IMG/VR virus record: IMGVR_UViG_3300005289_000092
Coordinates: 1-20,967 of that record
Length of the DNA stretch: 20,967 nt
Source of the DNA: a virus
Direction: 5' to 3' (one strand)
Position numbers and translations under genes: made by a program. Under the pieces are notes generated by a model, which had not been told where the DNA came from, did no database searches, and saw nothing but the letters and a program-made list of their open reading frames with translations. Of the stretch, positions 2,716 to 18,657 are shown one piece after another (the first letter of the stretch is position 1; every line of letters starts with the position of its first letter).

Positions 2716-3216
2716 TTATTCTGTTTTTATTACTGTATTGTTTTCATCTCCATAAATAGTATCCTTCTGCTCACCCAGTAAATAAATCTTATCGGTGCTT
2801 TCTTCAGGCTTACCAAATCCTAATAACGTCGCGCTAAACGATATGAATTCTCCCGCCGTATCTGTGTCTGAAATTGTTGTTATATGCGCTTTTCCTGAGT
2901 CAACATACCACCCAGATAATGTTTTACGCATCCATTCAATCAACACTCTATTTCTTTTATATGATCGTAATTCCCGATAAGAAATAATATTATTACCACT
3001 ATCTACATCATCCTTGATCATCATTCCTGATAACTCGATTGAGTAACTTTGATTGGTGATATAATCTGTATTCCATCCGGCATTATCCCGGGTGGTTGTT
3101 TTTATCGTTTCTGAATTTTCGTTAATAGGACTGGCAGTAAGGCACGCGACCGGCACCCAAGTATTATTCTTTTTAATATAAAAAAGGTTCTCTTCTCCTT
3201 TAATCTGCTCCATCAT
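2716..3216 (-). CDS. Second tail-tube-like protein (TP901-1 major tail protein fold)
   Basis: 166 residues. It has the pattern of TP901-1-type tail tube proteins: FYIKKNNTWVPVACLT near the N-terminus, then TTTRDNAGWNT, NQSYSIELSG, and a C-terminal GKAHITTIS...GEFISFSATLLGFG. The same landmarks recur in the tail tube gene at 8946-9425 (PVGCLTT, then GKGFLSDLS...GEITFSGTIQGSG), so the two look like distant paralogues. Its position downstream of the large baseplate-type gene and under its own promoter motif (3222-3238) suggests a special tail-tip or fibre-collar subunit, not the main tube; that is inference. Two adjacent ATG codons (3216 and 3213) are possible starts. Confidence 0.85.
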   Translation of the reverse strand: MMEQIKGEENLFYIKKNNTWVPVACLTASPINENSETIKTTTRDNAGWNTDYITNQSYSIELSGMMIKDDVDSGNNIISYRELRSYKRNRVLIEWMRKTLSGWYVDSGKAHITTISDTDTAGEFISFSATLLGFGKPEESTDKIYLLGEQKDTIYGDENNTVIKTE

Positions 3217-3221
3217 ACCCT

Positions 3222-3238
3222 TTTCTCTAATATAGTGA
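3222..3238 (-). promoter_or_regulatory. Copy A of the 17-bp phage late promoter motif
   Basis: The minus strand reads TCACTATATTAGAGAAA, one mismatch from the consensus TCACTATATTAGAGATA. It fills the short gap after the stop at 3246 and ends 5 bp before the ATG at 3216, so it would drive the second tail-tube protein, the fibre and the lysis candidates. No terminator precedes it. Confidence 0.65.
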
Positions 3239-3245
3239 AAATCAA

Positions 3246-5471
3246 CTATACAATTGTAACTTTTGTCTCATTTCCGTAGTTATATTGTTTATCAACCTTA
3301 AAATCTTTCTCATCTAAATAAACAGATGAAAACTCCTTGCTCGATAGTTTTAAAATTCCCGTGCTCGTGTCAAATGAATATGCTGTCGGTTGAAATTTTT
3401 TACCAGGAATATTTGCAAAAGAAATTAAACTTATGAAAGGTATATACCCATAAACATCTCCTTCAAATATCATCATAGGCCGAGGCGATAAACGAAGATT
3501 GTCTTCAGCGTTTATTTCTAACAATTCTTTAAATGTAGATCCGGCTCCGGGTTCATCAACCCTATACCAATTACTAGTAGGTGTATCAGCGTCTATTTTG
3601 TAAATAGTTCCCACAAACAAATCAGATACTGAATCTCCATTATATAGTGTTATATTAGGTTTTGTAACGGTTGATATTTTCTTAGTTCTACTAGCTGTAT
3701 ACTCTCTTCCTTTAATATTTCCTGAATCATTTGGCGCGACTTGTACAGAATATAATTTGAAATCCCCAGCACCTAATGGATGTTTATCTCTAAAAATATT
3801 TAGTTCTAATGTTCCTGATGTTGGAGCTTGCACAACTAATTCATATGTAGCATCACCTAATCCTTTACATATTTTTTCACCACCTGGATAATATCCTTCG
3901 AATGAGTAGTTTGCTACAAAATTAATATATCCTGAACCCTGCCATCCACCACTTTCTATATTAAAGTATTGTCCACCTACCGCAATTGAAAACCTTAGAC
4001 CTACGGAATTTATATTTTCATTAGCAAACTGTACAGTCAACTTTATGACCGCCCCCCCATTAATATCAATCGATTGGTTTAATTTCAAAATAAATGATTC
4101 GCCACTGCCAGTAAAAGTTTTAGATGTTAGCCCAGATCCATTAGGCAACCTATTAACCATTCCATCATCATTAACCACTATCCATCCCGGTATGTCTAAT
4201 CCACCACCTGAAAGCTTCAATTCTCCATTTCTGAAAACAGAATTTGCATTTCCATATTGATATGTTACTCGATAGGCCTGTACACTTGCTGCAATACTTT
4301 TTTTCTGGTTTGCATTGCAGTGAAATACATTAAAATAATCAATATGACTACCAATTTCTATGGCTGGATAAATTGAAAATGTTGTATCATAAATGCCATC
4401 AATATATTTATTGAAAACAGTATTTGTAACCAAATCAATTGACCTATTTATATACCACTCACCGTTATGTTGAAATAAGGACGCATTAAATAACTGTAGT
4501 ATAGATTTTAATACACTTTCACAATCCATAGGATCTGAGATGCTTTGAGAATACCTTTGAGTGTTTAAGTAAAATGTTTCAAATGTATTATAACTTCCAG
4601 GAGAGCCTTCATAGAACACGCTGCAGTTTACATTTATTGGCAAATCAAGGCCAGATTTTTTAAGGCAGCTTACAATAACATCGAAAGCCGTGTATAGTCC
4701 GGAGAAAGAAATTCCATTTTCGTTAGAGAAAGACATATTCTTTAACGTAGAAAGTCCATCAAAAGCATCAATTGATAATTCCCATTTGTCATAAACATAA
4801 TCTTCAAATATTCCATCCGGTTTAAGAAATCCAATAAAAATGACTTGCCCATTTCTTTTTAAATATACCTTGAAATTTTTTTCATCTTCAGAGTATAAAT
4901 CTTGTAAAGAAATTGATTGATCAGCCATTAAATTAAGGCTTAAACTTGATGCTATGATAGGCTGGAAATGATCTGGCTTATCTTGATATTTAATTTCACA
5001 CCTCCCTTCTATTTGAATTGGATCTCCTTTATATTGATTTTCATGGATTTCACAAACATACAAATCATTTGATGACTTGTTTTCCAGGTAATATTTTAAT
5101 TTATATTCAACCGGCGGATCAACAGTTCCTCCTCCCTCACTGATTACTTTTAGATAAATAGGTATGTTTTTCTCTTCCGATGTTGCATTAGTTAATATTA
5201 AAGAATATTCATAATCGCCGGGTGTTAAGTCGAATTCACTCTCATCAATTGAAATAGTAACAAGGCGTGGACGGTCCTCTACTTCAATAAATACAGGAGG
5301 TGTAAAATTGAAAAAACTATATGCATTATAATATACCTTATAATCATCTAATGGCTCATCTACAACGAATAATGAAACCGAAAATATATTATCTCCACTT
5401 AACTCATGTGTCGCAGTATTATAAACAAGTGACAACGAGCTTTTATTTGTATTTATTACACTAACCTGCAT
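3246..5471 (-). CDS. Large baseplate / distal tail-type structural protein
   Basis: 741 residues directly after the tape measure gene, overlapping it by 11 bp. The first about 120 residues are beta-rich and look like an immunoglobulin-like domain (ending LILTNATSEEKNIPIYLKVI). A GGGTVDPPVEYKLKYYLE linker leads into a long beta-rich body containing a segment typical of distal-tail/hub proteins (KVYLKRNGQVIFIGFLKPDG, then YDKWELSIDAFDGLSTLKN). The region at about 480-580 looks like a further beta-sandwich, possibly carbohydrate binding. In siphovirus order the gene after the tape measure encodes the distal tail or tail-hub protein, so a baseplate role is likely. No enzyme motif was recognised. 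Confidence 0.8.
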   Translation of the reverse strand: MQVSVINTNKSSLSLVYNTATHELSGDNIFSVSLFVVDEPLDDYKVYYNAYSFFNFTPPVFIEVEDRPRLVTISIDESEFDLTPGDYEYSLILTNATSEEKNIPIYLKVISEGGGTVDPPVEYKLKYYLENKSSNDLYVCEIHENQYKGDPIQIEGRCEIKYQDKPDHFQPIIASSLSLNLMADQSISLQDLYSEDEKNFKVYLKRNGQVIFIGFLKPDGIFEDYVYDKWELSIDAFDGLSTLKNMSFSNENGISFSGLYTAFDVIVSCLKKSGLDLPINVNCSVFYEGSPGSYNTFETFYLNTQRYSQSISDPMDCESVLKSILQLFNASLFQHNGEWYINRSIDLVTNTVFNKYIDGIYDTTFSIYPAIEIGSHIDYFNVFHCNANQKKSIAASVQAYRVTYQYGNANSVFRNGELKLSGGGLDIPGWIVVNDDGMVNRLPNGSGLTSKTFTGSGESFILKLNQSIDINGGAVIKLTVQFANENINSVGLRFSIAVGGQYFNIESGGWQGSGYINFVANYSFEGYYPGGEKICKGLGDATYELVVQAPTSGTLELNIFRDKHPLGAGDFKLYSVQVAPNDSGNIKGREYTASRTKKISTVTKPNITLYNGDSVSDLFVGTIYKIDADTPTSNWYRVDEPGAGSTFKELLEINAEDNLRLSPRPMMIFEGDVYGYIPFISLISFANIPGKKFQPTAYSFDTSTGILKLSSKEFSSVYLDEKDFKVDKQYNYGNETKVTIV

Positions 5472-8292
5472 TTAATCTACTATTACTGTTATTAGCTCTA
5501 TTTAAAACTCCAACTAAATCTGAACCCGAAATCCTAAATACAACCTCTCCTCCATTCGATCCAGAAGAGAAATTAGAAGAATATGTATTACTTGAATAAT
5601 TTGCACCGGTTCCTGTTGAAACAGATCCTCCAGAATTCATTCCTGATTTAGCTTTAGAACCAATTGCACTGCCCGCTATAGATAACGCAGCTCCAACCCC
5701 TATGGCTGCAATACCAGCAGCTATTGCTTGAAAACCTCCCGTTTTTATTATTTCATCAAGAGTTCCCTTCATTATTGCCAATGTTCCATATTTTATTAAC
5801 ATACTTCCCATGTCTGATAAAAAACTACCGAACATCTTTAATAAGCCATTTCCCAGCGCGCCAATAACATCACCTCCGGAGCCTATCGCATCTCCAATCG
5901 AAGTAAGCATTTCAGTAATGCCATTTGATATGGATGAACTAAGCAAATTGTCAAAATCTTTACGCATTTGCTCTGCCATCTTTTTAAGTTCCTCTGCCTT
6001 AACTTTAGCACTATCAATACCTAAACCTATATTTTTAGGCAACATTAAAAAAGAACTTCCTATCTGATTGATGAAAATAGGCACATCAACACTTAACTTT
6101 TCTAAATTGGTGACTATTGCATTTTTAAAGTTTTCGACTTTACCGATAGAACTACCTAAAGAATCAATATTTTTTACAATACTATCAAACGGATTAACAT
6201 TGCTTCCCAAAGTAAAATCAAACCCTGCAGCAGCAGAATTTATTTGATTGAGTTCATTTGTGAAATCCTCTCTGAATGCTTTAAAGTCTGATATACCGGA
6301 CGGAGGCTTAACTTCTAATAAAGATATTTGTGCTAGTAGCTGTTCTAATTGTTCTTTAGCCTCTTGAAGGTTTAATGTTACACCAGTAAAATAAGGTTGA
6401 CCTTTTTTATTAGTTTCCTTTCCAAACTTATCCAGACCTCTTATTTTAACAATATCATTTACAGATGTGTCTATTGCTTTTTTTAATAAATCAGCTCTTT
6501 GTTGCAACTCTGCAATTGAACCTTTTGAAAATATTTCTGCCAATTGTTTCTCTGCCTCCTTTTTTACTTTTGGAAGTCCAGGTAAAAAATTATTTGGCGC
6601 TGCTACATCTAGGTTTTTAATATCATCTACTCCTCTATTTAAAATGTCTAAAATCGGTTTGTCTTCTATCTTCCCTGCTCTTAATTCCGAAGTAAATGAG
6701 TTTAGTAAGTTCTTTGCTGCTCTTTTTGCAATAGCTTTAATCTCTTTGTCATCTTGAAATGCTGAATTAGCAAAAGGGTTTGCAATCCCTCCTAACAATT
6801 TTTCAGTAGTAGTTAAAGCATTTTCAAAATCTTTAATATAGCCCCTCATTGCCTCAGAATTATTAGTTTTCTGAATTTGAAATAAAGCGGTTAATTTTTT
6901 TCTTACCTCAACTTCTCTCTTAAGTCTATCCTCGGACCTTGTGTCCAATTCTTTTTGTGCAGCACGCGCTAGTGATGCATTAACTATAGCAGTTTTAAGT
7001 TTTTTATATTGTCCAGCTGCTTGACCCGCTAAAATGGCCTCATTACTTAGATTGCCAAAGTAAAATGGATATTCTTTCTGAATTTGATCAACCGCAGCGT
7101 TTCTTTCCTCAATAGCCAGCTTATGATCTTGAGTTTTTTTGTATAAAGCTTCTAAATTTGCAATCTCTACCCTGGCACTTGACCTCGCTTCTGACAATGA
7201 CTCGTTCCACCTGTCTAATCTATCATTAGCTGTTTCAATTGATGATTTGTATAATCCCACAGCTGTAACCAACGACAATATAGCCGCCCCAGCTGCTAAA
7301 TAAGGATTAGTCAACATCGCCGTATTGAATGCGATAACAGCCGCCCTAACCGCTGTAAATCCGCTAACTAATGTTGGTAGGAATGCTAAAATTCCACCTA
7401 TTCCTAATAAAACAGGTCCAGTAGCCGCAGCTAAGCCAATAAATATTAACGATAATTCTTGAACCGGTTTACTTAAACTTTCAAATTTAGAAATGGCCTT
7501 ATCGATGAAATCAGTAAGCTTATTTATTATACCAGAAATATCAAAGTTTTTATCAATCAATTCCCCAATTCTCGCAAGATTCTGCTGCATTGAATCTTTT
7601 AAATTTTCAAATGCATTTTTGACACCTCCCGAAACTCTAGGCAACTTTCCTAAGCCCTCAACTATAACATCCATTACCTGTTTTGAGCTTATCTTAAGCT
7701 TTTGAAGGTCTTCTGTTCTTGATGTACCAAATGCCGCTTTTAATAATGTGGCAACCTGTGGCAAGGCATCCTTGATGATGTTTAAATCCTCTCCTAAAGG
7801 AAAGTCTGTATTTGCTAATTGTTGAACACCATATATAGCCCTCTCAAATTCTACACGACCTTTTCCGACCGTAGCAATTGCATTTCCAAATTCGCTAAGT
7901 ATTTTTTCCGCATTTCCTGCAGAATAACCAATTGCCTGAAGACCTACCGATCCTTTAGCTGCTTCTTTTAATCCAAGCCCAGGCAATTTAGCAATCTCTC
8001 TTAAGTCATCCATTTGCTTAACAGCATACGATGCAGATCCCGCCACCGCTTCAATACCTAATTCAAGAGCTTGCAAATCCCCATATGCTTTGATTGAAGC
8101 TGCTCCTAGTCCTAAAATTGGAGTAGTAACATACAGAGTAAGTTTTTGACCTACATCTGATAATTTATCACCAACCTCTCCTATTTTTTCAATGTTTTTA
8201 TTGAAATCAGAAAGAAGTCTTTGTGCCTCATTTAATCCGTTTCTTAAGCCGTCAATTGACGCCCCTATTATTACCTGTAAGTTGTCCGCCAT
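5461..8292 (-). CDS. Tail tape measure protein
   Basis: 943 residues, the longest gene in the window, placed directly after the tail assembly chaperones as in lambda-like phages. The N-terminal region is helical with repeated coiled-coil character. Hydrophobic segments lie at about 280-345 (SLIFIGLAAATGPVLLGIGG, then YLAAGAAILSLVTAVGLY). A second hydrophobic, glycine-rich region lies near 850-900 (IAAGIAAIGVGAALSIAG), followed by a Ser/Gly-rich tail. It would set tail length and be ejected with DNA; at the usual about 0.15 nm per residue the tail would be roughly 140 nm. It overlaps the preceding chaperone frame by 41 bp and the following gene by 11 bp. Confidence 0.93.
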   Translation of the reverse strand: MADNLQVIIGASIDGLRNGLNEAQRLLSDFNKNIEKIGEVGDKLSDVGQKLTLYVTTPILGLGAASIKAYGDLQALELGIEAVAGSASYAVKQMDDLREIAKLPGLGLKEAAKGSVGLQAIGYSAGNAEKILSEFGNAIATVGKGRVEFERAIYGVQQLANTDFPLGEDLNIIKDALPQVATLLKAAFGTSRTEDLQKLKISSKQVMDVIVEGLGKLPRVSGGVKNAFENLKDSMQQNLARIGELIDKNFDISGIINKLTDFIDKAISKFESLSKPVQELSLIFIGLAAATGPVLLGIGGILAFLPTLVSGFTAVRAAVIAFNTAMLTNPYLAAGAAILSLVTAVGLYKSSIETANDRLDRWNESLSEARSSARVEIANLEALYKKTQDHKLAIEERNAAVDQIQKEYPFYFGNLSNEAILAGQAAGQYKKLKTAIVNASLARAAQKELDTRSEDRLKREVEVRKKLTALFQIQKTNNSEAMRGYIKDFENALTTTEKLLGGIANPFANSAFQDDKEIKAIAKRAAKNLLNSFTSELRAGKIEDKPILDILNRGVDDIKNLDVAAPNNFLPGLPKVKKEAEKQLAEIFSKGSIAELQQRADLLKKAIDTSVNDIVKIRGLDKFGKETNKKGQPYFTGVTLNLQEAKEQLEQLLAQISLLEVKPPSGISDFKAFREDFTNELNQINSAAAGFDFTLGSNVNPFDSIVKNIDSLGSSIGKVENFKNAIVTNLEKLSVDVPIFINQIGSSFLMLPKNIGLGIDSAKVKAEELKKMAEQMRKDFDNLLSSSISNGITEMLTSIGDAIGSGGDVIGALGNGLLKMFGSFLSDMGSMLIKYGTLAIMKGTLDEIIKTGGFQAIAAGIAAIGVGAALSIAGSAIGSKAKSGMNSGGSVSTGTGANYSSNTYSSNFSSGSNGGEVVFRISGSDLVGVLNRANNSNSRLNAG

Positions 8293-8629
8293 TTACCACT
8301 TCATTTATCGCCTTCATTAATAAATCCTTTCCTCTATCGGTAATTCCGCCACCTTTCTTAGTTATTCCACTATATATAGGGAAGAATTTCTCTTTTGATA
8401 CTTTTTTGGTATCTATCGCTCCAGTTGCAGCTAAAGCATAGTAAGATACATCTCTAGTATGCTCCCACTTTACTTTGTTTTCTCGATCAAACCCTAGCCT
8501 TCTTAACTGAAATTCCCTCCAAGTCATATCTTCAACATATTCCAAGGAGGGGCATTTTAATTCTACCAACGCAAAGGATAGTATATCATGATCAAAGTTT
8601 ATTTTTTCACTGGAGCCTTCTTCTTTCCC
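8252..8629 (-). CDS. Tail assembly chaperone, frameshift extension (T-like part of GT)
   Basis: Reading frame in the -1 phase of the upstream chaperone. It has no good start of its own: the first candidate is a TTG at 8569, but the frame is open upstream through the stop of the first gene back to the slippery GGGAAAG at 8623-8629. After slipping, translation would continue EEGSSEKINFDHDIL and then into VELKCPSLEYVEDMTWREFQ. The product would add about 123 residues to the first 107 of the upstream protein, about 230 in all. By analogy with lambda gpGT it would bind the tape measure and help assemble the tail tube. Its end overlaps the tape measure gene by 41 bp. Confidence 0.75.
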   Translation of the reverse strand, partial: GKEEGSSEKINFDHDILSFALVELKCPSLEYVEDMTWREFQLRRLGFDRENKVKWEHTRDVSYYALAATGAIDTKKVSKEKFFPIYSGITKKGGGITDRGKDLLMKAINEVVNGGQLTGNNRGVN

Positions 8630-8943
8630 TCTAATTCAGTTTTTTGCTCCGTTGTGATTGATGCTGTAAATGCTTCAATAAACTTCACTAACTGCGGTGA
8701 TGTCAACCCTCCGTCTTCATCAATCATATCCTCTACCTGATCTATTGTATAATTAAAATCGGCAGTACCTTTTTTTAATGAATTGTACATTAGTGGAGCA
8801 GCAACCAACGGAAGATTTTTAGCAAACAACTGAAAGAACTCCTGAAGTTCTAATTCAAGGTGTTTGACTGTATTTCCAATTACTGCTAATCCAAATTTAG
8901 CTTTGAATTCTTTACCTTCAAATGTTAAAATAGTATGATTCAT
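8599..8943 (-). CDS. Tail assembly chaperone (lambda gpG-like)
   Basis: 114 residues, mostly helical, between the tail tube gene and the tape measure, the invariant site of siphovirus tail chaperones. The C-terminus is Lys-rich (ELEGKKKAPVKK). The codons GAG GGA AAG at residues 105-107 contain G_GGA_AAG, the lambda G/GT slippery heptamer, 22 bp before the zero-frame stop. Most ribosomes would make this 114-residue form and a minority the GT-like fusion. No enzyme motif is expected. The start is 2 bp after the tail tube stop. Confidence 0.85.
   Translation of the reverse strand: MNHTILTFEGKEFKAKFGLAVIGNTVKHLELELQEFFQLFAKNLPLVAAPLMYNSLKKGTADFNYTIDQVEDMIDEDGGLTSPQLVKFIEAFTASITTEQKTELEGKKKAPVKK
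8623..8629 (-). promoter_or_regulatory. Programmed -1 ribosomal frameshift site GGGAAAG
   Basis: The minus strand reads G GGA AAG in the zero frame of the chaperone gene (codons at 8628-8626 and 8625-8623), matching the X_XXY_YYZ rule and identical to the heptamer used in lambda G/GT. The -1 frame downstream is open to the stop at 8252. No strong downstream hairpin or pseudoknot was seen. Confidence 0.8.
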
Positions 8944-8945
8944 GA

Positions 8946-9425
8946 TTATACGTGTAAATCTGTGTTAGAAATTTCTCCACTACCTTGAATTGTTCCTGAG
9001 AATGTAATTTCACCTTCAACTGGAGCTGATCTAGATAGATCACTTAAAAAACCTTTACCAAATTTTGTTTCCTTGGTATCATCTGCCATCGTTGTTTCTA
9101 TTTTCCAGTAAATATGTTTTTTAGTTTTATAAGCGTCCATCATAATAGCAGAAACAGCATCATAACTTGCCAATAACCCATCTACTTCCATTGCTACAGC
9201 ATCAAATGTTATCTGATAACTGTACCCATTATATGTCTTATCCGGTGACAGATTACATTTAGTCTTTGTTCCGTCATTTAATTCTACGGTTTCCGATAAT
9301 TCATTTGTTGTCAGACACCCTACCGGAAAGTAGTTTGCCGCAACTGCTTCTCCTGCTGCATCTTTAATAGGACCATAAATGAAAAGAATTTCATTGGCCC
9401 CAAGTAATGTTTGATTACCTGCCAT
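8946..9425 (-). CDS. Major tail tube protein
   Basis: 159 residues in the tail-tube position, between the tail terminator and the tail chaperones. The sequence fits the TP901-1-like tail tube family: beta-rich, with PVGCLTTNELSE near residues 33-44, YQITFDAVAM in the middle, and a C-terminal GKGFLSDLS...GEITFSGTIQGSGEI. It would polymerise into the tube through which DNA passes. Related landmarks occur again in the protein at 2716-3216. The start overlaps the upstream gene by 11 bp. Confidence 0.85.
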   Translation of the reverse strand: MAGNQTLLGANEILFIYGPIKDAAGEAVAANYFPVGCLTTNELSETVELNDGTKTKCNLSPDKTYNGYSYQITFDAVAMEVDGLLASYDAVSAIMMDAYKTKKHIYWKIETTMADDTKETKFGKGFLSDLSRSAPVEGEITFSGTIQGSGEISNTDLHV

Positions 9426-9834
9426 CTTCTTTAAGTTTTAATGAATATTTAATTATTTTTCTGTAAATCGTTTCCGTTGTAGTTGATTGATTGAGATCTA
9501 ATGGAAATGAAATATTGAAGTATTGAACAATAAAATTTTCTACTGTAATTTTATCAGTTCGTTGTAGAATTTCTTCAATAATATCATCAAGTAATACCCT
9601 GCTTCCAACATTTCCCTTATATCGAGTAATAACGTCAATATTAATTTCTCTCATCTTATCAACAGAACATTTTGTATTCCATTGATCTGATCCACTTTGA
9701 GTGGAAAGAACTATTAAAACATTGTCATTATTAGGAGTGGTAGTATCGTATAGTTTAACGGGAATTCCGTTCACTACCATATTTGAAAGTGTTTGATAAA
9801 AATATTTTCTAATCCACTTATCCGGATTCTTCAT
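9415..9834 (-). CDS. Probable tail terminator protein
   Basis: 139 residues, first gene of the tail operon behind terminator 9893-9920 and promoter copy B. Position just before the tail tube gene and after the HK97 gp10-like gene matches tail terminators (lambda gpU/DUF3168 type). Visible features fit a small alpha/beta protein: an early helix (YFYQTLSNMVV), central strands (NVLIVLSTQSGSD, REINIDVITRYKG) and a C-terminal strand (YRKIIKYSLKL). Assignment is mainly by gene order and overall pattern, without a signature motif. Confidence 0.7.
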   Translation of the reverse strand: MKNPDKWIRKYFYQTLSNMVVNGIPVKLYDTTTPNNDNVLIVLSTQSGSDQWNTKCSVDKMREINIDVITRYKGNVGSRVLLDDIIEEILQRTDKITVENFIVQYFNISFPLDLNQSTTTETIYRKIIKYSLKLKEDGR

Positions 9835-9848
9835 AACTCCAACCTCAT

Positions 9849-9865
9849 TATCTCTAATATAATGA
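9849..9865 (-). promoter_or_regulatory. Copy B of the 17-bp phage late promoter motif
   Basis: The minus strand reads TCATTATATTAGAGATA, one mismatch from consensus, 14 bp before the ATG at 9834. It lies about 30 bp downstream of the terminator at 9893-9920, forming a terminator-promoter unit that separates the head-joining from the tail operon. Confidence 0.7.
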
Positions 9866-9892
9866 ATTAAAACTAATTACGGAATAGGTAAA

Positions 9893-9920
9893 CAAAAAAA
9901 ACACCTTTATTTAAGGTGTT
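9893..9920 (-). terminator. Rho-independent terminator after the head-joining genes
   Basis: Perfect 8-bp stem AACACCTT/AAGGTGTT with a 5-nt loop (9900-9920), followed on the minus strand by an uninterrupted run of T (9893-9899 and the last stem bases). It abuts the stop codon at 9921. Confidence 0.88.
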
Positions 9921-10370
9921 TTAAATTCTGGCATTAAATTCTCTTTTTAATTGATCTAAAGCATTCCTCAAATCCTGAAGGTATCTATTCCTACCTTCTA
10001 TGAAAGCTGGATAAAAATAAGGGTGTGGATGCATTTGTCCCCGCCCATTAATATAGAATTGCCATGCGATATTTTTCCATTCTTCTGCAACCTCAACATA
10101 TGTTCCTGTGCCAAATTCAATATAAGCACCCATAGGCACCTGATTTACTGAAATAATTGATTTAAATCCGTTTTCGTCAGATCTAGCATTTATTGATTGT
10201 CCAATTGTTCCGGTTTCATCAACATCTGAATAGGCAGATAGATTTTGAGCCGCCTTAGTGGCTATTTCTTGTCCATTAACTGCTGTTATTTGTCGAATCC
10301 TCGTTTTACCCTTAGTTCCAAACTGATTTAGTTTAGCTAAAGTTTCCCTTACTCCTTCAACTCTCATCAC
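9921..10370 (-). CDS. HK97 gp10-like neck / tail-component protein
   Basis: 149 residues with the pattern of the HK97 gp10 family: an N-terminal helix around LAKLNQFGTKGKTRIRQ, the mid-protein signature MGAYIEFGTGTYV, and a C-terminal HPHPYFYPAFIEGRNRYLQDL (the family motif around P-F-x-P-A). Proteins of this family sit at the neck between head closure and tail. It overlaps the preceding head-closure gene by 14 bp and ends at a terminator. Two consecutive ATG codons begin the frame. Confidence 0.88.
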   Translation of the reverse strand: MMRVEGVRETLAKLNQFGTKGKTRIRQITAVNGQEIATKAAQNLSAYSDVDETGTIGQSINARSDENGFKSIISVNQVPMGAYIEFGTGTYVEVAEEWKNIAWQFYINGRGQMHPHPYFYPAFIEGRNRYLQDLRNALDQLKREFNARI

Positions 10371-10680
10371 AAAATAAATTTAATTCCATTTGCTCAAGCC
10401 TTCTATGTTCAGTCCCCTTAATGAAATATTCTTTACCTTGATATTTAACAAAGTGATTCTCAGAATATATTATTTCATTTTTTTTATCTCTTACAGAAAA
10501 AATAACCGGGTTTTTAAAATCCTGAATTCCATAATTTACAAAACGGCTCCCGGCATTAGTCGTTATTTTAGCCCAGACTTTTTCCACAAATACATCTGAA
10601 GGTAAATTACCTCCAAAATCATCAGGAACGTGTGTTTTGTTCCATATTTCAATTAATCGATTATATTCCCTTGCTAACAT
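10357..10680 (-). CDS. Head closure / head-tail joining protein (SPP1 gp16-like)
   Basis: 107 residues. The sequence has the pattern of the phage head-tail joining family: REYNRLIEIWNKTHVPDDFGG at the start, VWAKITTNAG in the middle, and FSVRDKKNEI...VKYQGKEYFIKGTEHR near the end. It would plug the connector after packaging and give the tail its docking surface. It overlaps the connector gene by 7 bp and the gp10-like gene by 14 bp, which fits a tightly coupled operon. Confidence 0.85.
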   Translation of the reverse strand: MLAREYNRLIEIWNKTHVPDDFGGNLPSDVFVEKVWAKITTNAGSRFVNYGIQDFKNPVIFSVRDKKNEIIYSENHFVKYQGKEYFIKGTEHRRLEQMELNLFCDES

Positions 10681-11138
10681 GCGATAAAACGTCTATTTGT
10701 GTCTATGACCTGTTTTACATTTTCAGGCAAAAGTGTAGTATTTATATTCTTCTCTGCTTCATAATACCAAACCTTTATCATTTGAAGTGCACAATCAATA
10801 AGTTCTGAAGGTGCATTTTCTTTCGAAGTATATCCAACATTTACCGTGATAGAATCAATTCCGCAAAACCTGACAAAGCCAGGATAATACAAAGGCACTT
10901 CATTATCCGGAAAAGTAGTTGTATTAATTGGATGATCATAAATGTTAATATATCCAGTATAGTCTTTGTTATATGTTTTGTCTTGTGATTTAAAAATATG
11001 TTGTGTTTGCTTCTCGATGTAACCAAACGCAGAATTAATCATTCGACTAACATCATTATCGTCTTCTGAGAAATCATCCAAGCGCAAATATTTCTTAGTT
11101 TCCTCCAGTGATAAAATATGTTCGTAATTATTCGCCAT
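10674..11138 (-). CDS. Head-tail connector (HK97 gp6-like adaptor)
   Basis: 154 residues. The N-terminal pattern SLEETKKYLRLDDFSEDDNDVSRMINSAFGYIEKQT is typical of the gp6-like head-tail connector family, in which an amphipathic helix bundle forms a ring under the portal. The C-terminal region (ELIDCALQMIKVWYYEAEKN) is the usual closing helix. It is followed directly by the head-closure gene (7-bp overlap). The start ATG shares one base with the upstream stop (TAATG). Confidence 0.88.
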   Translation of the reverse strand: MANNYEHILSLEETKKYLRLDDFSEDDNDVSRMINSAFGYIEKQTQHIFKSQDKTYNKDYTGYINIYDHPINTTTFPDNEVPLYYPGFVRFCGIDSITVNVGYTSKENAPSELIDCALQMIKVWYYEAEKNINTTLLPENVKQVIDTNRRFIAC

Positions 11139-11377
11139 TAATTTTGGTTTAATTTATCGTAATCAACTGCGTTTTTCCAATCTGGTTCATAGCTTCCTTC
11201 CTTACAAGGAATTTCTTTGACTAATTGCCCAGTAATTATCAGGTAGTGATAATTTTCTTTATCAATAATATCCTGAGCCAGTTCCCACGTTGGCGCCTCA
11301 ATCCTCATTCCATCAATCCAAACCAATTCTTTAGTATGTTGATTGACAACCTGCATTTGTGTACAGAAAAAAGGCAT
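11138..11377 (-). CDS. Small protein of unknown function in head-joining operon
   Basis: 79 residues, no recognised domain. It begins MPFFCTQMQVVNQHTKELVWIDG and is acidic towards the C-terminus. No transmembrane helix or signal peptide is evident. It is coupled on both sides: its start shares one base with the preceding stop at 11377 and its stop overlaps the connector start at 11138. Position between capsid and connector would suit a small head-associated or accessory protein, but that is only context. Confidence 0.72.
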   Translation of the reverse strand: MPFFCTQMQVVNQHTKELVWIDGMRIEAPTWELAQDIIDKENYHYLIITGQLVKEIPCKEGSYEPDWKNAVDYDKLNQN

Positions 11378-11607
11378 TAATCAGTTTTTTTTGTTTCAAT
11401 AATTTCTGATCCTGCCTTCGTGACCTTTTTCTTTTTATCTGTTGGAATCGACACCTTTTCTTGTGACTTACCGTCAATCCAAACTGCAACTCTTTTATTT
11501 ACTGCAGCCTTATTTCTTTCTGCTCCTAAATCGAGTTCTGTTCCAACTTCATACATTACCATGTGGTTATCTCTATCCGACACAGGCTGAATAATTCTTA
11601 TCCTCAT
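11377..11607 (-). CDS. Small Lys-rich protein of unknown function, first gene after the capsid
   Basis: 76 residues from the ATG at 11607 (MRIRIIQPVSDRDN), with a Lys-rich C-terminal tail (PTDKKKKVTKAG). The frame is open further upstream to an ATG at 11673, but that start would lie beyond promoter copy C (11626-11642) and inside the capsid terminator, so 11607 is preferred. The N-terminal half looks beta-rich (MVMYEVGTELDLG, RVAVWIDGKS). No function is recognised; small proteins with this look follow the capsid gene in other Bacteroidota phages. Confidence 0.72.
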   Translation of the reverse strand: MRIRIIQPVSDRDNHMVMYEVGTELDLGAERNKAAVNKRVAVWIDGKSQEKVSIPTDKKKKVTKAGSEIIETKKTD

Positions 11608-11625
11608 CTTATTTCTTTTTAGGTT

Positions 11626-11642
11626 TATATCTAATATAGTGA
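11626..11642 (-). promoter_or_regulatory. Copy C of the 17-bp phage late promoter motif
   Basis: The minus strand reads TCACTATATTAGATATA, one mismatch from consensus, 18 bp before the ATG at 11607. It lies about 20 bp downstream of the capsid terminator (11661-11689), so it would restart transcription for the head-joining genes. A TTTG lies 19 bp upstream of TATATTAG here, the best match to a host -33 element among the five copies. Confidence 0.7.
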
Positions 11643-11660
11643 TTTTCAGTTTTATTTCAA

Positions 11661-11689
11661 ATAAAAACCACACCCTTTACAGGATGTGG
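11661..11689 (-). terminator. Rho-independent terminator after the major capsid gene
   Basis: The minus strand forms an 8-bp stem CCACATCC/GGGTGTGG with one G-T wobble and a 6-nt loop (11668-11689), followed by TTTTTAT (11661-11667). It lies 25 bp after the capsid stop codon at 11715. Confidence 0.85.
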
Positions 11690-11714
11690 AAAATAATAAA
11701 CTATGCAAAAAGTA

Positions 11715-12989
11715 TTAAACTGTTTCTGGTTTATTGATTGCTGTAATTGCTGCAGCAAATGTTCCTTGCAAGAATGCAGGGATGTGATGCTTTTTGATAT
11801 AGTGTACAGCTCTCATTTCGGCAAGGATGGTCACTAAGTTTTTAGTAAAGTCATCATTTTCATAACCTAAGTTAATATTGATTTCTTCACGAATTCTTAG
11901 GTTAGATTTTGTAAAATCACCAATCAAGAAAGATCCTTCCTCGATAGCTTCATTTTCAATTACTAAAATACCGGCAATTCTTTGCCCGTCAGCAGTAACA
12001 AATGGAGGTAAAATATAATGCCCATCAGTACCTTTTTCAAGATCCATCAAAGCAGCATCCATTGGACTAATCACAATGTAATTAGGATTAAATCTATTTT
12101 TCTTAACCAATGCTACTGCGGTTCTTAAAACATCCAGCCTGTTAGCATTGAAAACAGCTGTAGCGAATGAGGTTCCAGTTACGTTGAATGTTGGGGCATA
12201 CTGAAGAATACCTTTAAGGTTTTGACCCACTCCATCCCCGTCAGAAATTTGCTCATCAAGTTTGATTTCAATAGCTTCCCTTAAGTCTGTGTTAATCTCA
12301 GATCTTAAGAAGTCTAGATCATCCAGGGCTTCCTTAGAAATCTTAACAAAGGCTGTTATTTTTTTAACATCAGCACTCTCTTCTGTATACGTCCAGCTGA
12401 TTTGAGATTTTTTAGCACCTTCCGCCGTCATCCCAGCTGTTCCTTCCTGAGCCTCCTTGTTTACCCACGTAACTTTATTACCTCTGATTGTTGAAACATT
12501 TACGATATTTCTAAACAATGGCATCCTTTGGGGAGCTGCGGAAATAACACGATCTATTTCGGTTGTTAATGCGTTACCGGCATAACTACCCAAAACCATT
12601 GTTGCAGGTGCTTTCACCTCAAATGGTACGGATGAAGCTCTGTTATTTTTTAATTCAGCAATAGCATCTTGAACGGCTTTTTCTTCGAATTTTGCCTTTA
12701 CTTCTTCGTCCATTGTTTTTACAATCCCCTTTACGGATCCGGACTTCTGAAGTTTAATATCCAGCTTATCTAAATGATCCTGCATCTTTTCCAAAGACTC
12801 TTTGACTTCTTGGGAATTATCCGCAGATTTTAAGCCTTCTTCTATTTGTTTTTGGAAATCTGCCATCTTTTGGTCAATTGCTTCTTTTACCTGCTTTGCC
12901 GTATTTTCGCCCGCAGATTTTTCAAATTCTGAGACTTGTTTTTTAATTGCGTCAAGCCCATCCTGCATTTTTGTTTCTAATTCTGTCAT
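11715..12989 (-). CDS. Major capsid protein, HK97 fold
   Basis: 424 residues. The first about 105 residues are a charged coiled coil (LETKMQDGLDAIKKQVSEFE, then VKESLEKMQDHLDKLDIKLQ), as expected for the delta/scaffolding domain removed during maturation. From about 120 on the sequence follows HK97-type capsids: LTTEIDRVISAAPQRMPLF, VSTIRGNKVTWVNKEA, VKISKEALDDLDFLRSEI, then NPNYIVISPMDAALM and the C-terminal LAEMRAVHYIKKHHIPAFLQ. It lies directly downstream of the prohead protease with no gap and is followed by a strong terminator, so it shares promoter copy D with the protease. Whether the capsid cross-links as in HK97 cannot be judged. Confidence 0.95.
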   Translation of the reverse strand: MTELETKMQDGLDAIKKQVSEFEKSAGENTAKQVKEAIDQKMADFQKQIEEGLKSADNSQEVKESLEKMQDHLDKLDIKLQKSGSVKGIVKTMDEEVKAKFEEKAVQDAIAELKNNRASSVPFEVKAPATMVLGSYAGNALTTEIDRVISAAPQRMPLFRNIVNVSTIRGNKVTWVNKEAQEGTAGMTAEGAKKSQISWTYTEESADVKKITAFVKISKEALDDLDFLRSEINTDLREAIEIKLDEQISDGDGVGQNLKGILQYAPTFNVTGTSFATAVFNANRLDVLRTAVALVKKNRFNPNYIVISPMDAALMDLEKGTDGHYILPPFVTADGQRIAGILVIENEAIEEGSFLIGDFTKSNLRIREEININLGYENDDFTKNLVTILAEMRAVHYIKKHHIPAFLQGTFAAAITAINKPETV

Positions 12990-13697
12990 TTACTTGATTT
13001 TAAAATTTAACATTGTATTAAATAACGGCTCATAAGTTTTCAATTGAGTGTCTGCGGACGGCTCATTTTTACTTTGAGTGTTTTCGGTTTTACCTAATTC
13101 GTAAGATTGTAGTTGTAATTGCTTAAGGGCTATTTCAAGAATGGAAAAAGTATCATCTGTAAGATTACCATTTTTAAGCATCTTAACGATTTTACCAACC
13201 ATTTCACTGTTCTCAGCCATAGTTGACTTTATTCCTTCCAATTTTGCTAATGGATTAGCAGCTAACGTAACTGCGGAAAATTCAAACAACTTAACTTCTT
13301 GTAGAATTCTTTTATTTCTCTCATCAACTGATTTAATTGTAGAATACCCAATGCTATGTTCATCAACTAAACCCTCCTCATAAAGTAATATAAGATCATC
13401 CCCATAAGACAACCCTTCTGGAATTTTGGCTTCAAACTTAAGCCCATAATTATCTTCGTGAAGCTTTACATTCTTACTACCTTTATCAATTGGTTTTTCC
13501 CAATTGTGCTGGTATAAGAAGTATATGTCATTTAAACGTTCATTGATTGATTTCGTGAAAGCACCTTTTACTATAACATCGCTGTCATAGTCAGTGTTAT
13601 TAAAAACTGAAGCGTATCCAGTAACCGTGCGAGTCTTTCTGTCTACATCTTTAACTCCTCCACTTTTAACACTTTTGAATTCTAAAATCCCCTTCAT
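12990..13697 (-). CDS. HK97-family prohead protease
   Basis: 235 residues. The protease domain covers about residues 1-160 with the family landmarks: DRKTRTVTGYASVFNN, DSDVIVKGAF, the catalytic His in FLYQHNW (H64), and the catalytic Ser in DEHSIGY (S115), followed by FEFSAVTLAANPLAKL. The remaining about 75 residues are an extension rich in polar residues after a helix. It cleaves the capsid delta domain and itself during head maturation. The capsid gene follows with no intergenic base. The promoter motif lies 13 bp upstream. Confidence 0.93.
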   Translation of the reverse strand: MKGILEFKSVKSGGVKDVDRKTRTVTGYASVFNNTDYDSDVIVKGAFTKSINERLNDIYFLYQHNWEKPIDKGSKNVKLHEDNYGLKFEAKIPEGLSYGDDLILLYEEGLVDEHSIGYSTIKSVDERNKRILQEVKLFEFSAVTLAANPLAKLEGIKSTMAENSEMVGKIVKMLKNGNLTDDTFSILEIALKQLQLQSYELGKTENTQSKNEPSADTQLKTYEPLFNTMLNFKIK

Positions 13698-13710
13698 TTT
13701 TCCTCGTCAT

Positions 13711-13727
13711 TATCTCTAATATAGTGA
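13711..13727 (-). promoter_or_regulatory. Copy D of the 17-bp phage late promoter motif
   Basis: Exact consensus TCACTATATTAGAGATA on the minus strand, 13 bp before the ATG of the prohead protease (13697). It stands back to back with the plus-strand promoter of the inserted genes: only 6 bp separate it from their TTTG element. Confidence 0.75.
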
Positions 13728-13733
13728 TTATAT

Positions 13734-13765
13734 TTTGATTATGTATAACTATTGTTGTAAATTTA
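13734..13765 (+). promoter_or_regulatory. Putative host-type promoter for the plus-strand moron pair
   Basis: TTTG at 13734-13737, a 20-bp spacer, then TAAATTTA at 13758-13765, one mismatch from the Bacteroidota -7 consensus TAnnTTTG. The ATG at 13770 follows after only 4 bp, so the transcript would be leaderless or nearly so. Confidence 0.55.
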
Positions 13766-13769
13766 CCTT

Positions 13770-14084
13770 ATGAACGTTCAAGACACATTACCAAAAGAAA
13801 TTCAGGGAAAGCTAAATATTTACTTTGATCCTATTATTAATAGTTATCATACTTCTTTTTATTCATCCAAGAATGAACGATTGATCGGATACTTATTTTC
13901 AGATCTACCACACATAAAAATGATTGCAGTTGAAGTAGAAAAATTTATTAATGGAAAGAGATACAACTGCTACACAAAAATTTCTTATTCATTGGTTACA
14001 GATACAGATTTAGCCATTGACTTTATAGTTAGTGAAACTAATAATAGCTTGAATAAAGCCTACTTAAGTAACAATCAGAACTAA
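13770..14084 (+). CDS. Unknown protein, first gene of plus-strand moron pair
   Basis: 104 residues, no recognised domain. It begins MNVQDTLPKEIQGKLNIYFD, contains a plausible beta-hairpin (YNCYTKISYSLVTDT) and has no transmembrane helix. It is on the strand opposite to the surrounding head genes, has its own promoter, and is followed after 18 bp by a second plus-strand gene. This arrangement is that of a moron, a self-contained unit that can be expressed when late genes are silent. Function is unknown. Confidence 0.8.
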   Translation: MNVQDTLPKEIQGKLNIYFDPIINSYHTSFYSSKNERLIGYLFSDLPHIKMIAVEVEKFINGKRYNCYTKISYSLVTDTDLAIDFIVSETNNSLNKAYLSNNQN

Positions 14085-14102
14085 TCAATAAAAGACAATT
14101 TA

Positions 14103-14483
14103 ATGGATGCAAAGGATTTAAGAATTGGGAATTTAATTACAAGACATGATTTAGGAACTAGCGAACCTAGGATTGAAACTATCATTGAATTAAGAAAGGA
14201 TAAAGTTTTTACTTCAGGTCCTGTAACTGTAATTTGTGACTATGAAGATCTTAATCCTGTTCCTATAACCGATGAATGGCTTCTAAAGTTAGGTTTTACT
14301 CAGGACGGTGACGAATATTCAAAAGACAATTTTATTGTAAGACTAAATCGAAGAGATTTAGTCATTGAAGGTTTTGAATACGACTACAACGGTATTGTAA
14401 TTTCTACAGAATACTTTTATGTTCACGATTTGCAAAACCTTTACTTTGTTATAAAAAGGCAAGAATTAATCCGTAAAAATTAA
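14103..14483 (+). CDS. Bacteroidota phage-type protein with RIGN and WLLKLGF motifs
   Basis: 126 residues. It begins MDAKDLRIGNLITRH and continues PVPITDEWLLKLGF (about 52-65), then a C-terminal YVHDLQNLYFVIKRQELI. These three landmarks recur in a family of uncharacterised proteins common in Bacteroidota phages and mobile elements (from memory: RIGN near the start, P-I-P-L-T-E-E-W-L-L-K-F-G-F, and Y-V-H-x-L-Q-N-L-Y-F). The function of that family is unknown. The gene is the second of the inserted plus-strand pair and its 3' end overlaps the minus-strand minor head gene by 18 bp tail to tail, with no terminator between them. Confidence 0.85.
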   Translation: MDAKDLRIGNLITRHDLGTSEPRIETIIELRKDKVFTSGPVTVICDYEDLNPVPITDEWLLKLGFTQDGDEYSKDNFIVRLNRRDLVIEGFEYDYNGIVISTEYFYVHDLQNLYFVIKRQELIRKN

Positions 14484-15263
14484 TCCTCCGTTTTCGTCTC
14501 GTTTAGCTTCATAACCAAAAGTACATCTACAGTTGACTGTTTCTTTTGCCGTCCCGTTTTCTCTATCTCCTGGATATTTCATTTTTACACCGCCCACAGA
14601 AAACATTTTATCTTGATCTACTTTTTGCCCATTTGCATGAACATGGGATGACCTTTCTCGCCCATCATTTCTGCCTATCCATATTTTTTGCATCAAAACA
14701 CCAGAAGTCTGCCCGGCTATTTCTTTGGCTGAATTCATAGCAAATCCGGTTTCGGTTCTTGCGATTCTCATTGCCTGCCAAAGATAGAAATCACGTTTGT
14801 TTACAGTTTTGTAAATACGATCTCGCATTTGTTCTACCGTTTCATTTTCGTAAGTTCCTTTGCTTATTTCTGCTACTACAGCAGCTGTCATTGTTTCTGA
14901 AAGGCTACGAATTAAAGTCCCTCCGAATTTTGCGTAGTATTGAATTAAAAACTGCTGAAATGCTTCATTAAAGAATGGTAACGGTCTCCATTTCTTTAAT
15001 TGAATAGGGTTTTCTTTTCTAAGCTGTTTAGCGATGAATGTACCGTAAGCCTTGCCAATTGTGTAATCAACTTTATAGATAGTCTCTTTAAGACTTTCTT
15101 CATCGATGTTTAATACAATTACATACTTAGCATTGTCAAACGTCAAATTATCAAACTTTAAGCCCCTTAATTGCTTACGAAATTCTGCAATAATTAACTT
15201 TAACGCTTTGGCCTCGTAAGCATTGAAATGTTGAATATATGAATTGTAAACCTGATCAGACAT
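14466..15263 (-). CDS. Minor head protein, SPP1 gp7 / Mu F-like
   Basis: 265 residues. The C-terminal half has the family pattern: MRIARTETGFAMNSA, then KIWIGRNDGRERSSHVHANGQ, KMKYPGDREN and the closing NCRC. The N-terminal half is helical. Proteins of this family sit inside the head near the portal and help DNA delivery or head assembly. The start overlaps the portal stop by 8 bp, so it is coupled to the portal and read from promoter copy E. The 3' end overlaps the convergent plus-strand gene by 18 bp. Confidence 0.9.
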   Translation of the reverse strand: MSDQVYNSYIQHFNAYEAKALKLIIAEFRKQLRGLKFDNLTFDNAKYVIVLNIDEESLKETIYKVDYTIGKAYGTFIAKQLRKENPIQLKKWRPLPFFNEAFQQFLIQYYAKFGGTLIRSLSETMTAAVVAEISKGTYENETVEQMRDRIYKTVNKRDFYLWQAMRIARTETGFAMNSAKEIAGQTSGVLMQKIWIGRNDGRERSSHVHANGQKVDQDKMFSVGGVKMKYPGDRENGTAKETVNCRCTFGYEAKRDENGGLIFTD

Positions 15264-16662
15264 TTTTTAAGTATTCGTAAGATTTTTGTACATCTGAAGC
15301 AGTAATTCCAACCTCATCAATACGTTTTAAGCCTGAATTGATCCAAACTGAATCCATTCCATCATCTGCAAGAGTTTCATACTTTAAAGCCGTTCTTTTT
15401 TCGTTTGGTGTTAATGGCGCTCGGTCCATCCAGTCAATCATTGCTTTGTAATCCTCCTGCATTTCCGGAAGCTCGGTTATATCATGTTCTAAAACAGCGT
15501 TTTCATAGCCTTTAAACTTTCGAATGAACCTCTCTGTCATTGCTTGATCAAATAGTATAAGATCAGGCTGTATATTATCAGTCACTACGCGTTTTCGCTC
15601 TTCTTTCTGTTTATCATACTTGCCACCCTCATCATTATTCAATAAAGCATCCGACCAACCTAAGACATTACATATCTGTTTTTGATCATATTTAAGATAA
15701 TCGAAAGGCAACATATCCTTTGTATCTACTGATAGTTTAGTAAATTCAATTGGAACGGATAACCCGGCAATCTTAGCTAATCTTCCAGAATCTTTATCCA
15801 TGTCAACAAGTCGCTGCTTTAATTGCATTGCTTGCTCTGGAGTCATTGCGCTATCTTTACCTGAAAAGAACCCAAATACTCCACTGTTTTTAAGTGTCTT
15901 GACATTATTAGTTAATGCTTCATTGGACGACTCTATATTTCGTAATAAAGCTTTAATAGGTGACAATCCGTATAGGTGTCCACCTTGCATATCGAAAAAT
16001 GGGTTAGGCGTTTTAATGTGAATTACTTGATCTGCTGGAAAGGTAATATTTTGCTCTCCATCCCTGAGCATATAATAATCAATTGGGTCTTCATCGTACA
16101 ATACATCAGCATCTTTTTTAAGTACTATTTTGATCTTATGAGAAGGTAATACATATACCATTTTGGGAACTCCTCTATTTTCTCCTAACTCGGGCCATAC
16201 CATATACAGGTAAAAGTTGCCAGTCATTTTAAGAAAAAGCTTAAATAATGCATGAACATCACCCCAGGTTTGATTTGGATTAGGCTTTTCAAGTGGAAAA
16301 GGCATTTCTTTATCTTCGTAAGCCTTAGATTCAAGTATTAATTTATAGGCTAATTGTTTGGATGAGTAATTTCCATTGGTAGCATCACGTAATGAGGATA
16401 ATTTAGAAAGAGCTTGTTTGTCTTTTATTTTCTTCACAGCATAAGGAACGGCTTTCGTTTTATCACACATCTGTGTAACCACTGAAAATACATCCGGATT
16501 AATACCATAGCCTTTTTCTAAGTAAGTGGAGTCTTTGTAATCGTACTGTGCAGCTTGTCCGCCTAAGAATTGATACCAAGCTTTATTAAATGCGTTATCC
16601 CATGTTTTTTGGCTTCCAAAAGCGCCTCCAAACATTCTACCCCAAAAATTATCCTTCGCCAT
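15256..16662 (-). CDS. Portal protein, HK97 type
   Basis: 468 residues, near the usual size for HK97-like portals. Landmarks include QVIHIKTPNPF, YGLSPIKALLRNIESSNEAL (the conserved wing/clip helix start), LKNSGVFGFFSG and the stem region KYDQKQICNVLGWSDALLNN, then MTERFIRKFKGYEN. It forms the dodecameric ring at the capsid vertex through which the terminase packages DNA. The gene follows the large terminase after 42 bp that hold promoter copy E, and overlaps the minor head gene by 8 bp. Confidence 0.94.
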   Translation of the reverse strand: MAKDNFWGRMFGGAFGSQKTWDNAFNKAWYQFLGGQAAQYDYKDSTYLEKGYGINPDVFSVVTQMCDKTKAVPYAVKKIKDKQALSKLSSLRDATNGNYSSKQLAYKLILESKAYEDKEMPFPLEKPNPNQTWGDVHALFKLFLKMTGNFYLYMVWPELGENRGVPKMVYVLPSHKIKIVLKKDADVLYDEDPIDYYMLRDGEQNITFPADQVIHIKTPNPFFDMQGGHLYGLSPIKALLRNIESSNEALTNNVKTLKNSGVFGFFSGKDSAMTPEQAMQLKQRLVDMDKDSGRLAKIAGLSVPIEFTKLSVDTKDMLPFDYLKYDQKQICNVLGWSDALLNNDEGGKYDKQKEERKRVVTDNIQPDLILFDQAMTERFIRKFKGYENAVLEHDITELPEMQEDYKAMIDWMDRAPLTPNEKRTALKYETLADDGMDSVWINSGLKRIDEVGITASDVQKSYEYLKNV

Positions 16663-16676
16663 TTCCTAACTTCATT

Positions 16677-16693
16677 TATCTCTAATATAGTGA
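16677..16693 (-). promoter_or_regulatory. Copy E of the 17-bp phage late promoter motif
   Basis: Exact consensus TCACTATATTAGAGATA on the minus strand, 14 bp before the portal ATG (16662) and 11 bp after the large-terminase stop (16705). No terminator lies between them. Confidence 0.72.
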
Positions 16694-18045: not shown

Positions 18046-18475
18046 CTATGTCAATAATTGAAATACTAGTTATTTTTTCACCTTTTGAAGTAACATCGAC
18101 TTCTGATTTATCCCCGTACTTTTTAGGATTAAGCTTAGAAATAAGCCACCTCCTTGCATCATACTTCAATCTGCTTCTTTGAATTACCTCGTGATTAACT
18201 TTCGTATTTACAATACCATCACCTAAATCCATTTCCATAATGTCATTATGAGTGTCATCAACAATATCCAACATCTCATCTAGTAATGCTTCTGCTCTTT
18301 CTTCTGTCGCGCGCGCGTATTGTTTTACTTTTTCATCATCTAAATCTATCCATTCATAAAAAGTCTTTGAAGACAATTTAACCTCAATTAAGGCTTTTCG
18401 TAGAGATTTCCCATTTTCAATAGACTTGAAAATAGATTGAAGTAATTCTTCTTTTTGTTTTTCACTATAAGCCAT
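18029..18475 (-). CDS. Terminase small subunit (Sf6 type)
   Basis: 148 residues. An N-terminal helix-turn-helix-like region (LRKALIEVKLSSKTFYEWI, about 24-43) would bind the packaging site. A helical core follows, with the family signature SRLKYDARRWLISKLNPKKYGDKS (about 106-129). This signature is typical of the Sf6-like small terminase family. It lies directly upstream of the large subunit with a 17-bp overlap, and its ATG shares one base with the preceding stop (TAATG). An alternating GC run in codons for ARA (18307-18316) is the only GC-rich spot. Confidence 0.9.
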   Translation of the reverse strand: MAYSEKQKEELLQSIFKSIENGKSLRKALIEVKLSSKTFYEWIDLDDEKVKQYARATEERAEALLDEMLDIVDDTHNDIMEMDLGDGIVNTKVNHEVIQRSRLKYDARRWLISKLNPKKYGDKSEVDVTSKGEKITSISIIDIDGSSI

Positions 18476-18657
18476 TACTTATTCGGTTTAAAAGTCGTTA
18501 ATATTCCCCCTCTCAACGTACAAACTCCAACACGACTCCATGTACTTTCTATCCTCTTCATTTTTTCAAGGTTCTTAATTGCTCGAATTCGGCTTTCGTA
18601 CTCTCTTTCAGAAACCTCCAATTCATTCACCGCACTCCCTGTCACTCCCTCTGCCAT
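18475..18657 (-). CDS. Small helical protein upstream of terminase
   Basis: 60 residues, MAEGVTGSAVNELEVSEREYES at the start, then a charged helix (RIRAIKNLEKMKRIEST) and a basic C-terminus (GGILTTFKPNK). No recognised domain. The stop shares one base with the small terminase start, so it is probably co-translated. It could be a packaging accessory by position only. It is 11 bp from the preceding gene. Confidence 0.65.
   Translation of the reverse strand: MAEGVTGSAVNELEVSEREYESRIRAIKNLEKMKRIESTWSRVGVCTLRGGILTTFKPNK

Follow-up and report, generated by a model that had tools for sequence, protein, structure and literature searches.

Late promoters of T4-type phages are compact, extended −10-type elements at the heads of late units. 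They have no strict upstream element, and the host core polymerase is redirected to them with a gp55-like sigma factor. Reviews of this system exist in the T4 literature (such as PMC2988021). Late activators of the ArpU/RinA type are encoded where the early region ends, before terS, and have a sigma-4/HTH fold. In the Bacteroidota, the primary-sigma promoter consists of a −33 TTTG and a −7 TAnnTTTG element (PMC7366714, PMC9723704), and promoters mapped in Flavobacterium place the −7 box at −12 to −5 (PMC9723704). Our literature search found no late promoter class or late regulator described for temperate siphoviruses of Bacteroidota.

The late region analyzed here resembles each of these systems in part. 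Like the Bacteroidota primary-sigma promoter, its repeated 17-bp motif has the TA, the TT, and the final G of the −7 box, is frequently accompanied by TTTG, and stands before the first genes of units. Unlike that promoter, it has an A at the seventh position and the flanks TCAN and AGA, lacks the −33 element in most copies, and is nearly absent outside phage-derived DNA. The compact −10-type core TCANTATATTAGA at five heads without a fixed upstream element recalls the T4-type late promoters, but the sequence is unrelated, the phage is a temperate siphovirus, and no gp55-like sigma factor was found in the seven phage records. A small ORF that closes the early region immediately before terS, here termed x60, is reminiscent of the ArpU/RinA type, whereas it has no family match, its predicted structure is a helix and a beta hairpin with no sigma-4/HTH fold, and it would act at five promoters instead of one.

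Five motif copies head the late modules

The window, which is the whole stretch of 20,967 nucleotides that was analyzed, is a complete IMG/VR record yet a partial phage, and its early region was read from relatives. Scanning the window identified five copies of the 17-mer, all on the minus strand, two of them exact and three with one mismatch (Table 1), at the coordinates given by the initial annotation. No further copies with up to three mismatches were found in the window, and 100 dinucleotide shuffles produced a mean of 0.20 and a maximum of 2 copies. The first gene of the unit at 11626 had to be corrected to begin at 11607. The distance of 5–18 bp between the motif and the first gene of each module, as originally described, holds with gaps of 14, 13, 18, 14, and 5 nt for copies 1 to 5, respectively.

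Table 1. Positions of the motif copies, first genes of the late units, and associated features (window coordinates unless a record is named)
Feature	Position	Strand	Sequence	Remarks
Motif copy 1	16677..16693	−	TCACTATATTAGAGATA	precedes portal
Motif copy 2	13711..13727	−	TCACTATATTAGAGATA	precedes prohead protease/capsid
Motif copy 3	11626..11642	−	TCACTATATTAGATATA	precedes head-tail connector block
Motif copy 4	9849..9865	−	TCATTATATTAGAGATA	precedes tail terminator/major tail/tape measure
Motif copy 5	3222..3238	−	TCACTATATTAGAGAAA	precedes tail-tube-like protein/GDSL fibre/distal genes
Portal protein	15256..16662	−		first gene of unit 1
Prohead protease (Peptidase_S78)	12990..13697	−		first gene of unit 2
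Small protein	11377..11607	−		first gene of unit 3; start codon 3' of motif
Tail terminator	9415..9834	−		first gene of unit 4
Tail-tube-like protein	2716..3216	−		first gene of unit 5
Intrinsic terminator	11668..11689	−		immediately upstream of copy 3
Intrinsic terminator	9898..9922	−		immediately upstream of copy 4
−33-like element	11658..11661	−	TTTG	19 nt upstream of the copy 3 −7 box; coordinates from spacing
x60	18475..18657	−		60-aa ORF directly before TerS; candidate late regulator
Identical x60 stub	L138:19128-19166, L190:700, L192:1293, L193:2221, L195:1722		MAEGVTGSAVNE	module boundary before TerS

By gene assignment, the five units are the portal, protease/capsid, connector, tail, and tail-tube-like/fibre blocks. 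Unit 2 comprises the S78 protease and an HK97-type capsid protein, unit 4 the tail terminator, the major tail (tail tube) protein, and the tape measure protein, and unit 5 a second tail-tube-like protein and the GDSL fibre. The products of 2716-3216 and 8946-9425 both match tail-tube families (PHROG 1407), and one of them heads the last unit. Terminators directly precede two of the copies, as had been noted, and upstream of copy 2 lie cargo insert genes on the opposite strand. The blocks at 11626, 9849, and 13711 need their own promoters because of these upstream terminators or opposite-strand cargo genes. The cargo insert consists of two genes (13770-14483, plus strand) between a Mu F-like head gene and the protease; some relatives have no room for it.

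The motif is kept in related prophages with lineage-specific spelling

Portal searches retrieved relatives with 64–91% portal identity from viral contigs and Chryseobacterium genomes. Their hosts include C. oranimense, C. indologenes, and C. sp. E1, and the motif-bearing relatives are prophages of Chryseobacterium or close kin. The prophage of C. oranimense DSM 19055 (L027/L010) has five copies. The motif is located at the same five heads in every close relative of sufficient length, where the preceding sequence differs and the surrounding DNA has diverged. The motif is also kept in more distant prophages (L063/L067, L074, and L076). Most exact matches in unrelated viral contigs (L062, L065, L066, L071-L073, L077, and L078) are apparently due to chance, as judged from the local sequence only.

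The spelling of the motif varies between lineages. The prophage in G014, with a 64% identical portal, has TCANTATATTAGAGT at all five heads, and G011 (C. sp. E1) has TCACTAAATTAGATTA or a near variant at four heads and no motif at the connector head. Heads within the same phage differed by 1.77 mismatches versus 3.02 between different phages (permutation p=5e-5). The immediate flanks had no within-phage resemblance (p=0.80 and 0.64); farther upstream, the within-phage effect was only slight (p=0.03). Gene conversion is disfavored and a shared reader favored, because conversion would have brought the flanks along. The lineage spelling common to the module heads thus points to one putative shared reader.

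The motif resembles an altered −7 box

We aligned 57 family copies, near-identical relatives included, and observed a near-invariant core, TCANTATATTAGA, preceded by A/T bases. Part of this core was fixed in the search pattern, and unfiltered head scans agree with it. No position upstream of the core is fixed as strongly as TCANTATATTAGA. The inner motif had been described as close to the Bacteroidota −7 consensus, which is correct in that TA, TT, and G are kept and A replaces T: the −7 pattern TAnnTT-G is retained in essentially all copies, and the aligned copies deviate from the consensus TAnnTTTG as TAnnTTAG, with A at the seventh position. The accompanying statement that no −33 element is shared at fixed spacing holds for most copies but has to be modified for others, as TTTG is present 18–20 nt upstream of the −7 box at 10 of 28 non-redundant family sites, compared with 0.8 in shuffles. 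Among the window copies, this applies to the copy at 11626.

Each late transcription unit very probably has the motif as its promoter. With the −7 spacing in Flavobacterium, the predicted transcription start falls approximately on the last A of the 17-mer; for copy 1, the placement of the box at −12 to −5 predicts a start at 16677. A phage-specific promoter family at the late module heads, as initially proposed, is supported; it is nearly absent from the host background and probably tied to a phage factor. In 400 kb of one host genome, TAnnTTTG was enriched upstream of host genes (55 versus 29 antisense), whereas TAnnTTAG was not (10 versus 12). A scan of 60 genomes with the extended core gave 15 matches. 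Two motif prophages accounted for 8 of these, and the remainder were mostly solitary sites in or beside prophage remnants. We rejected a host regulon using the motif because, in these 60 genomes, the extended core hardly occurs except in phage-derived DNA.

Among 33 records of relatives lacking the motif (39–55% portal identity), TAnnTTTG precedes the portal gene in 24, where shuffles gave 5.1 and at most 13, and TAnnTTAG does so in none. Many of these records are related to each other, and a crude collapse to three lineages versus six gives a Fisher p of 0.012. Because the motif-less relatives have TAnnTTTG before the portal gene, the motif occupies the position of their ordinary sigma-A promoter. 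At the module heads of the motif-less relatives, the repeats are either A/T-rich or of the canonical TATATTTG type, and none is similar to the motif. In one of these relatives, L055, similar canonical −7-type boxes (TTATATTTG and TTATTTTTG) occur at four sites (3077, 4780, 8145, and 12507) upstream of its own genes, and one of them precedes the portal gene.

A small protein, x60, as a candidate late regulator

The initial annotation suggested dependence on a phage-encoded activator, sigma-like factor, or polymerase. The late units probably depend on a phage factor, but neither a sigma factor (seven records) nor a polymerase (one relative) was found. Sigma70_r2 was absent from the seven phage records, with the positive controls detected, and Pfam scans of a 42.9 kb relative, which covered its 45 non-structural proteins, identified no polymerase or sigma factor. 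PF00940 had no match in the seven records, and the same model also missed all control genomes. A phage sigma factor was rejected on the lack of sigma region 2 in the seven records and of any sigma factor among the non-structural proteins of that relative.

The regulator had been expected outside the window; the small-protein candidate, x60, sits inside (Table 1). The x60 gene overlaps the first base of TerS in the window and lies 1.2 kb before TerS in G014. By comparison of the early regions, x60 (60–71 aa) is the only non-structural gene common to the motif phages, and it persists where unrelated terminases have replaced the originals. It was found in 4 of 173 Chryseobacterium genomes, three with motif clusters and one with a variant motif. 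Every checked motif record covering its position contains x60, and all six motif-less relatives checked lack it. Physical proximity to the late modules could explain part of this co-occurrence.

A wider search revealed one more clear homologue of x60, in another Weeksellaceae genome, with an exact motif about 0.4 kb downstream at the head of a tail-only cluster; this region was retrieved via x60, and its motif was unknown beforehand. The cluster (L175:7758-20000 and L176:1-7000) contains a repressor-like gene, x60, the motif, and tail, fibre, holin-like, and lysis-type genes, and has no terminase, portal, or capsid gene. It is possibly an F-type tailocin. A packaging function of x60 is disfavored, as the tail-only cluster (G217) retains x60 without terminase, portal, and capsid. 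Beyond the Weeksellaceae, the order and phylum samples contained marginal matches only, one of which (G384) was checked and has no motif.

x60 has no match in Pfam, PHROG, or NCBIfam. The AlphaFold model (pLDDT 82) consists of a helix and a beta hairpin, for which a structure search returned no structural relatives, and no DNA-binding, sigma-binding, HTH, or sigma-4 fold was recognizable. We put forward x60 only tentatively as the phage factor.

Possible mechanism and alternative explanations

We are inclined, with some reserve, to a model in which the late promoters are read by the host RNA polymerase re-specified by a phage factor, most likely x60. In siphovirus prophages of Weeksellaceae, mostly Chryseobacterium, the 17-mer would be the promoter of every late unit, and the host RNA polymerase would read it with TATATTAG as the −7 box and TTTG at −33 as an optional element. 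The box, altered from TAnnTTTG by an invariant A for T together with the conserved TCAN before and AGA after it, would make the late units dependent on a trans factor that the phage encodes and produces late. This factor would most likely be x60, encoded immediately 5' of TerS. We infer the start of transcription, the late timing, the host polymerase as the reader, and x60 as the factor. A more far-reaching version, in which x60 as a new family of 60–70 aa switches the host polymerase from TAnnTTTG to TCANTATATTAGA, co-evolves with the promoter in each lineage, and also drives the tail-only cluster, is possible and rather doubtful.

These results yield a concrete promoter family with a compact candidate factor, as well as a natural promoter-switch series with TAnnTTTG in relatives without x60 and TAnnTTAG in those with x60. 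Redirection of the Bacteroidota polymerase thereby becomes testable. If the model is true, hosts for which few genetic tools exist would gain an inducible pair of promoter and regulator.

The motif could alternatively be a strong variant of the host sigma-A promoter that functions with no phage factor, the late timing being imposed via a repressor, DNA replication, or readthrough. We regard this explanation as a serious contender, even if it is more likely wrong than right. The retained TAnnTT-G, the frequent TTTG at −33, the solitary copies surviving in decayed remnants without phage genes, and the lack of an encoded sigma factor in seven records would all be accounted for. However, a reader of host origin alone would be expected to accept or favor T at the seventh position, where A is invariant. 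The spelling shared by the heads of one lineage, the lack of enrichment of TAnnTTAG upstream of host genes, and the nearly phage-restricted extended core also argue against a host-only promoter.

An operator for a dimeric regulator, overlapping the promoter, is improbable. The motif contains a near-dyad, TCnCTAnnnTAGnGA, in which five of seven symmetric positions agree in the commonest spelling, but position 4 varies (C, T, or G) against an invariant G at the partner position 12, and position 14 varies whereas position 2 is nearly fixed. The fixed positions are those of the asymmetric promoter, and the dyad operator was rejected because the symmetry is not conserved across the aligned copies.

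Even less credible is a role of the motif within the 5' leader as a signal for translation or RNA processing. Such a signal would explain why the motif is always on the coding strand a short way 5' of a start codon, but the distance to the start ranges from about 5 nt to more than 300 nt, internal genes lack the motif, Rfam gives no match, and relatives have a −7 box at the same position. A Shine-Dalgarno sequence was rejected, as a purine-rich box is found at just two of the five heads by the pattern used. A T7-like promoter for a single-subunit phage polymerase, in line with the resemblance raised in the initial annotation, is very unlikely: the motif shares TCACTATA with the T7 consensus, but a matching upstream recognition region is missing, the motif has TTAGAGATA instead of the GGGAGA of T7 promoters, and no polymerase gene was found when the 45 non-structural proteins encoded by the 42.9 kb relative were scanned.

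Exceptions and solitary motifs

One record, L187, combines a full-length x60 with a late block that is unrelated, and the approximately 20 kb seen downstream contain only one imperfect motif. A second Chryseobacterium prophage family and many of its decayed remnants contain just one exact copy, which follows the portal or head genes, and these solitary motifs are all located upstream of a variable small cargo gene. TTTG stands 18–20 nt upstream at 10 of 16 solitary sites, compared with 0.3 in shuffles. Solitary copies occur in L091, L101-L115, L139, and L190, many of them directly after a C-terminal remnant of the portal gene, and a short inverted repeat is often found 3' of the motif.

The TerS region was seen in five records, and in these x60 is reduced to a stub of 12 codons whose DNA is nearly identical (Table 1), possibly a recombination linker or a conserved DNA element. 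The motifs at the cargo sites do not need x60 in cis because x60 is absent there or reduced to the stub, and they may be read by the host alone, aided by the better −33 element. A near-exact motif (TCACTATATTAGAGATT) is also present in C. indologenes (L092:6695-6711, minus strand), where it precedes a small host ORF whose ISGG leader is of a double-glycine-like kind.
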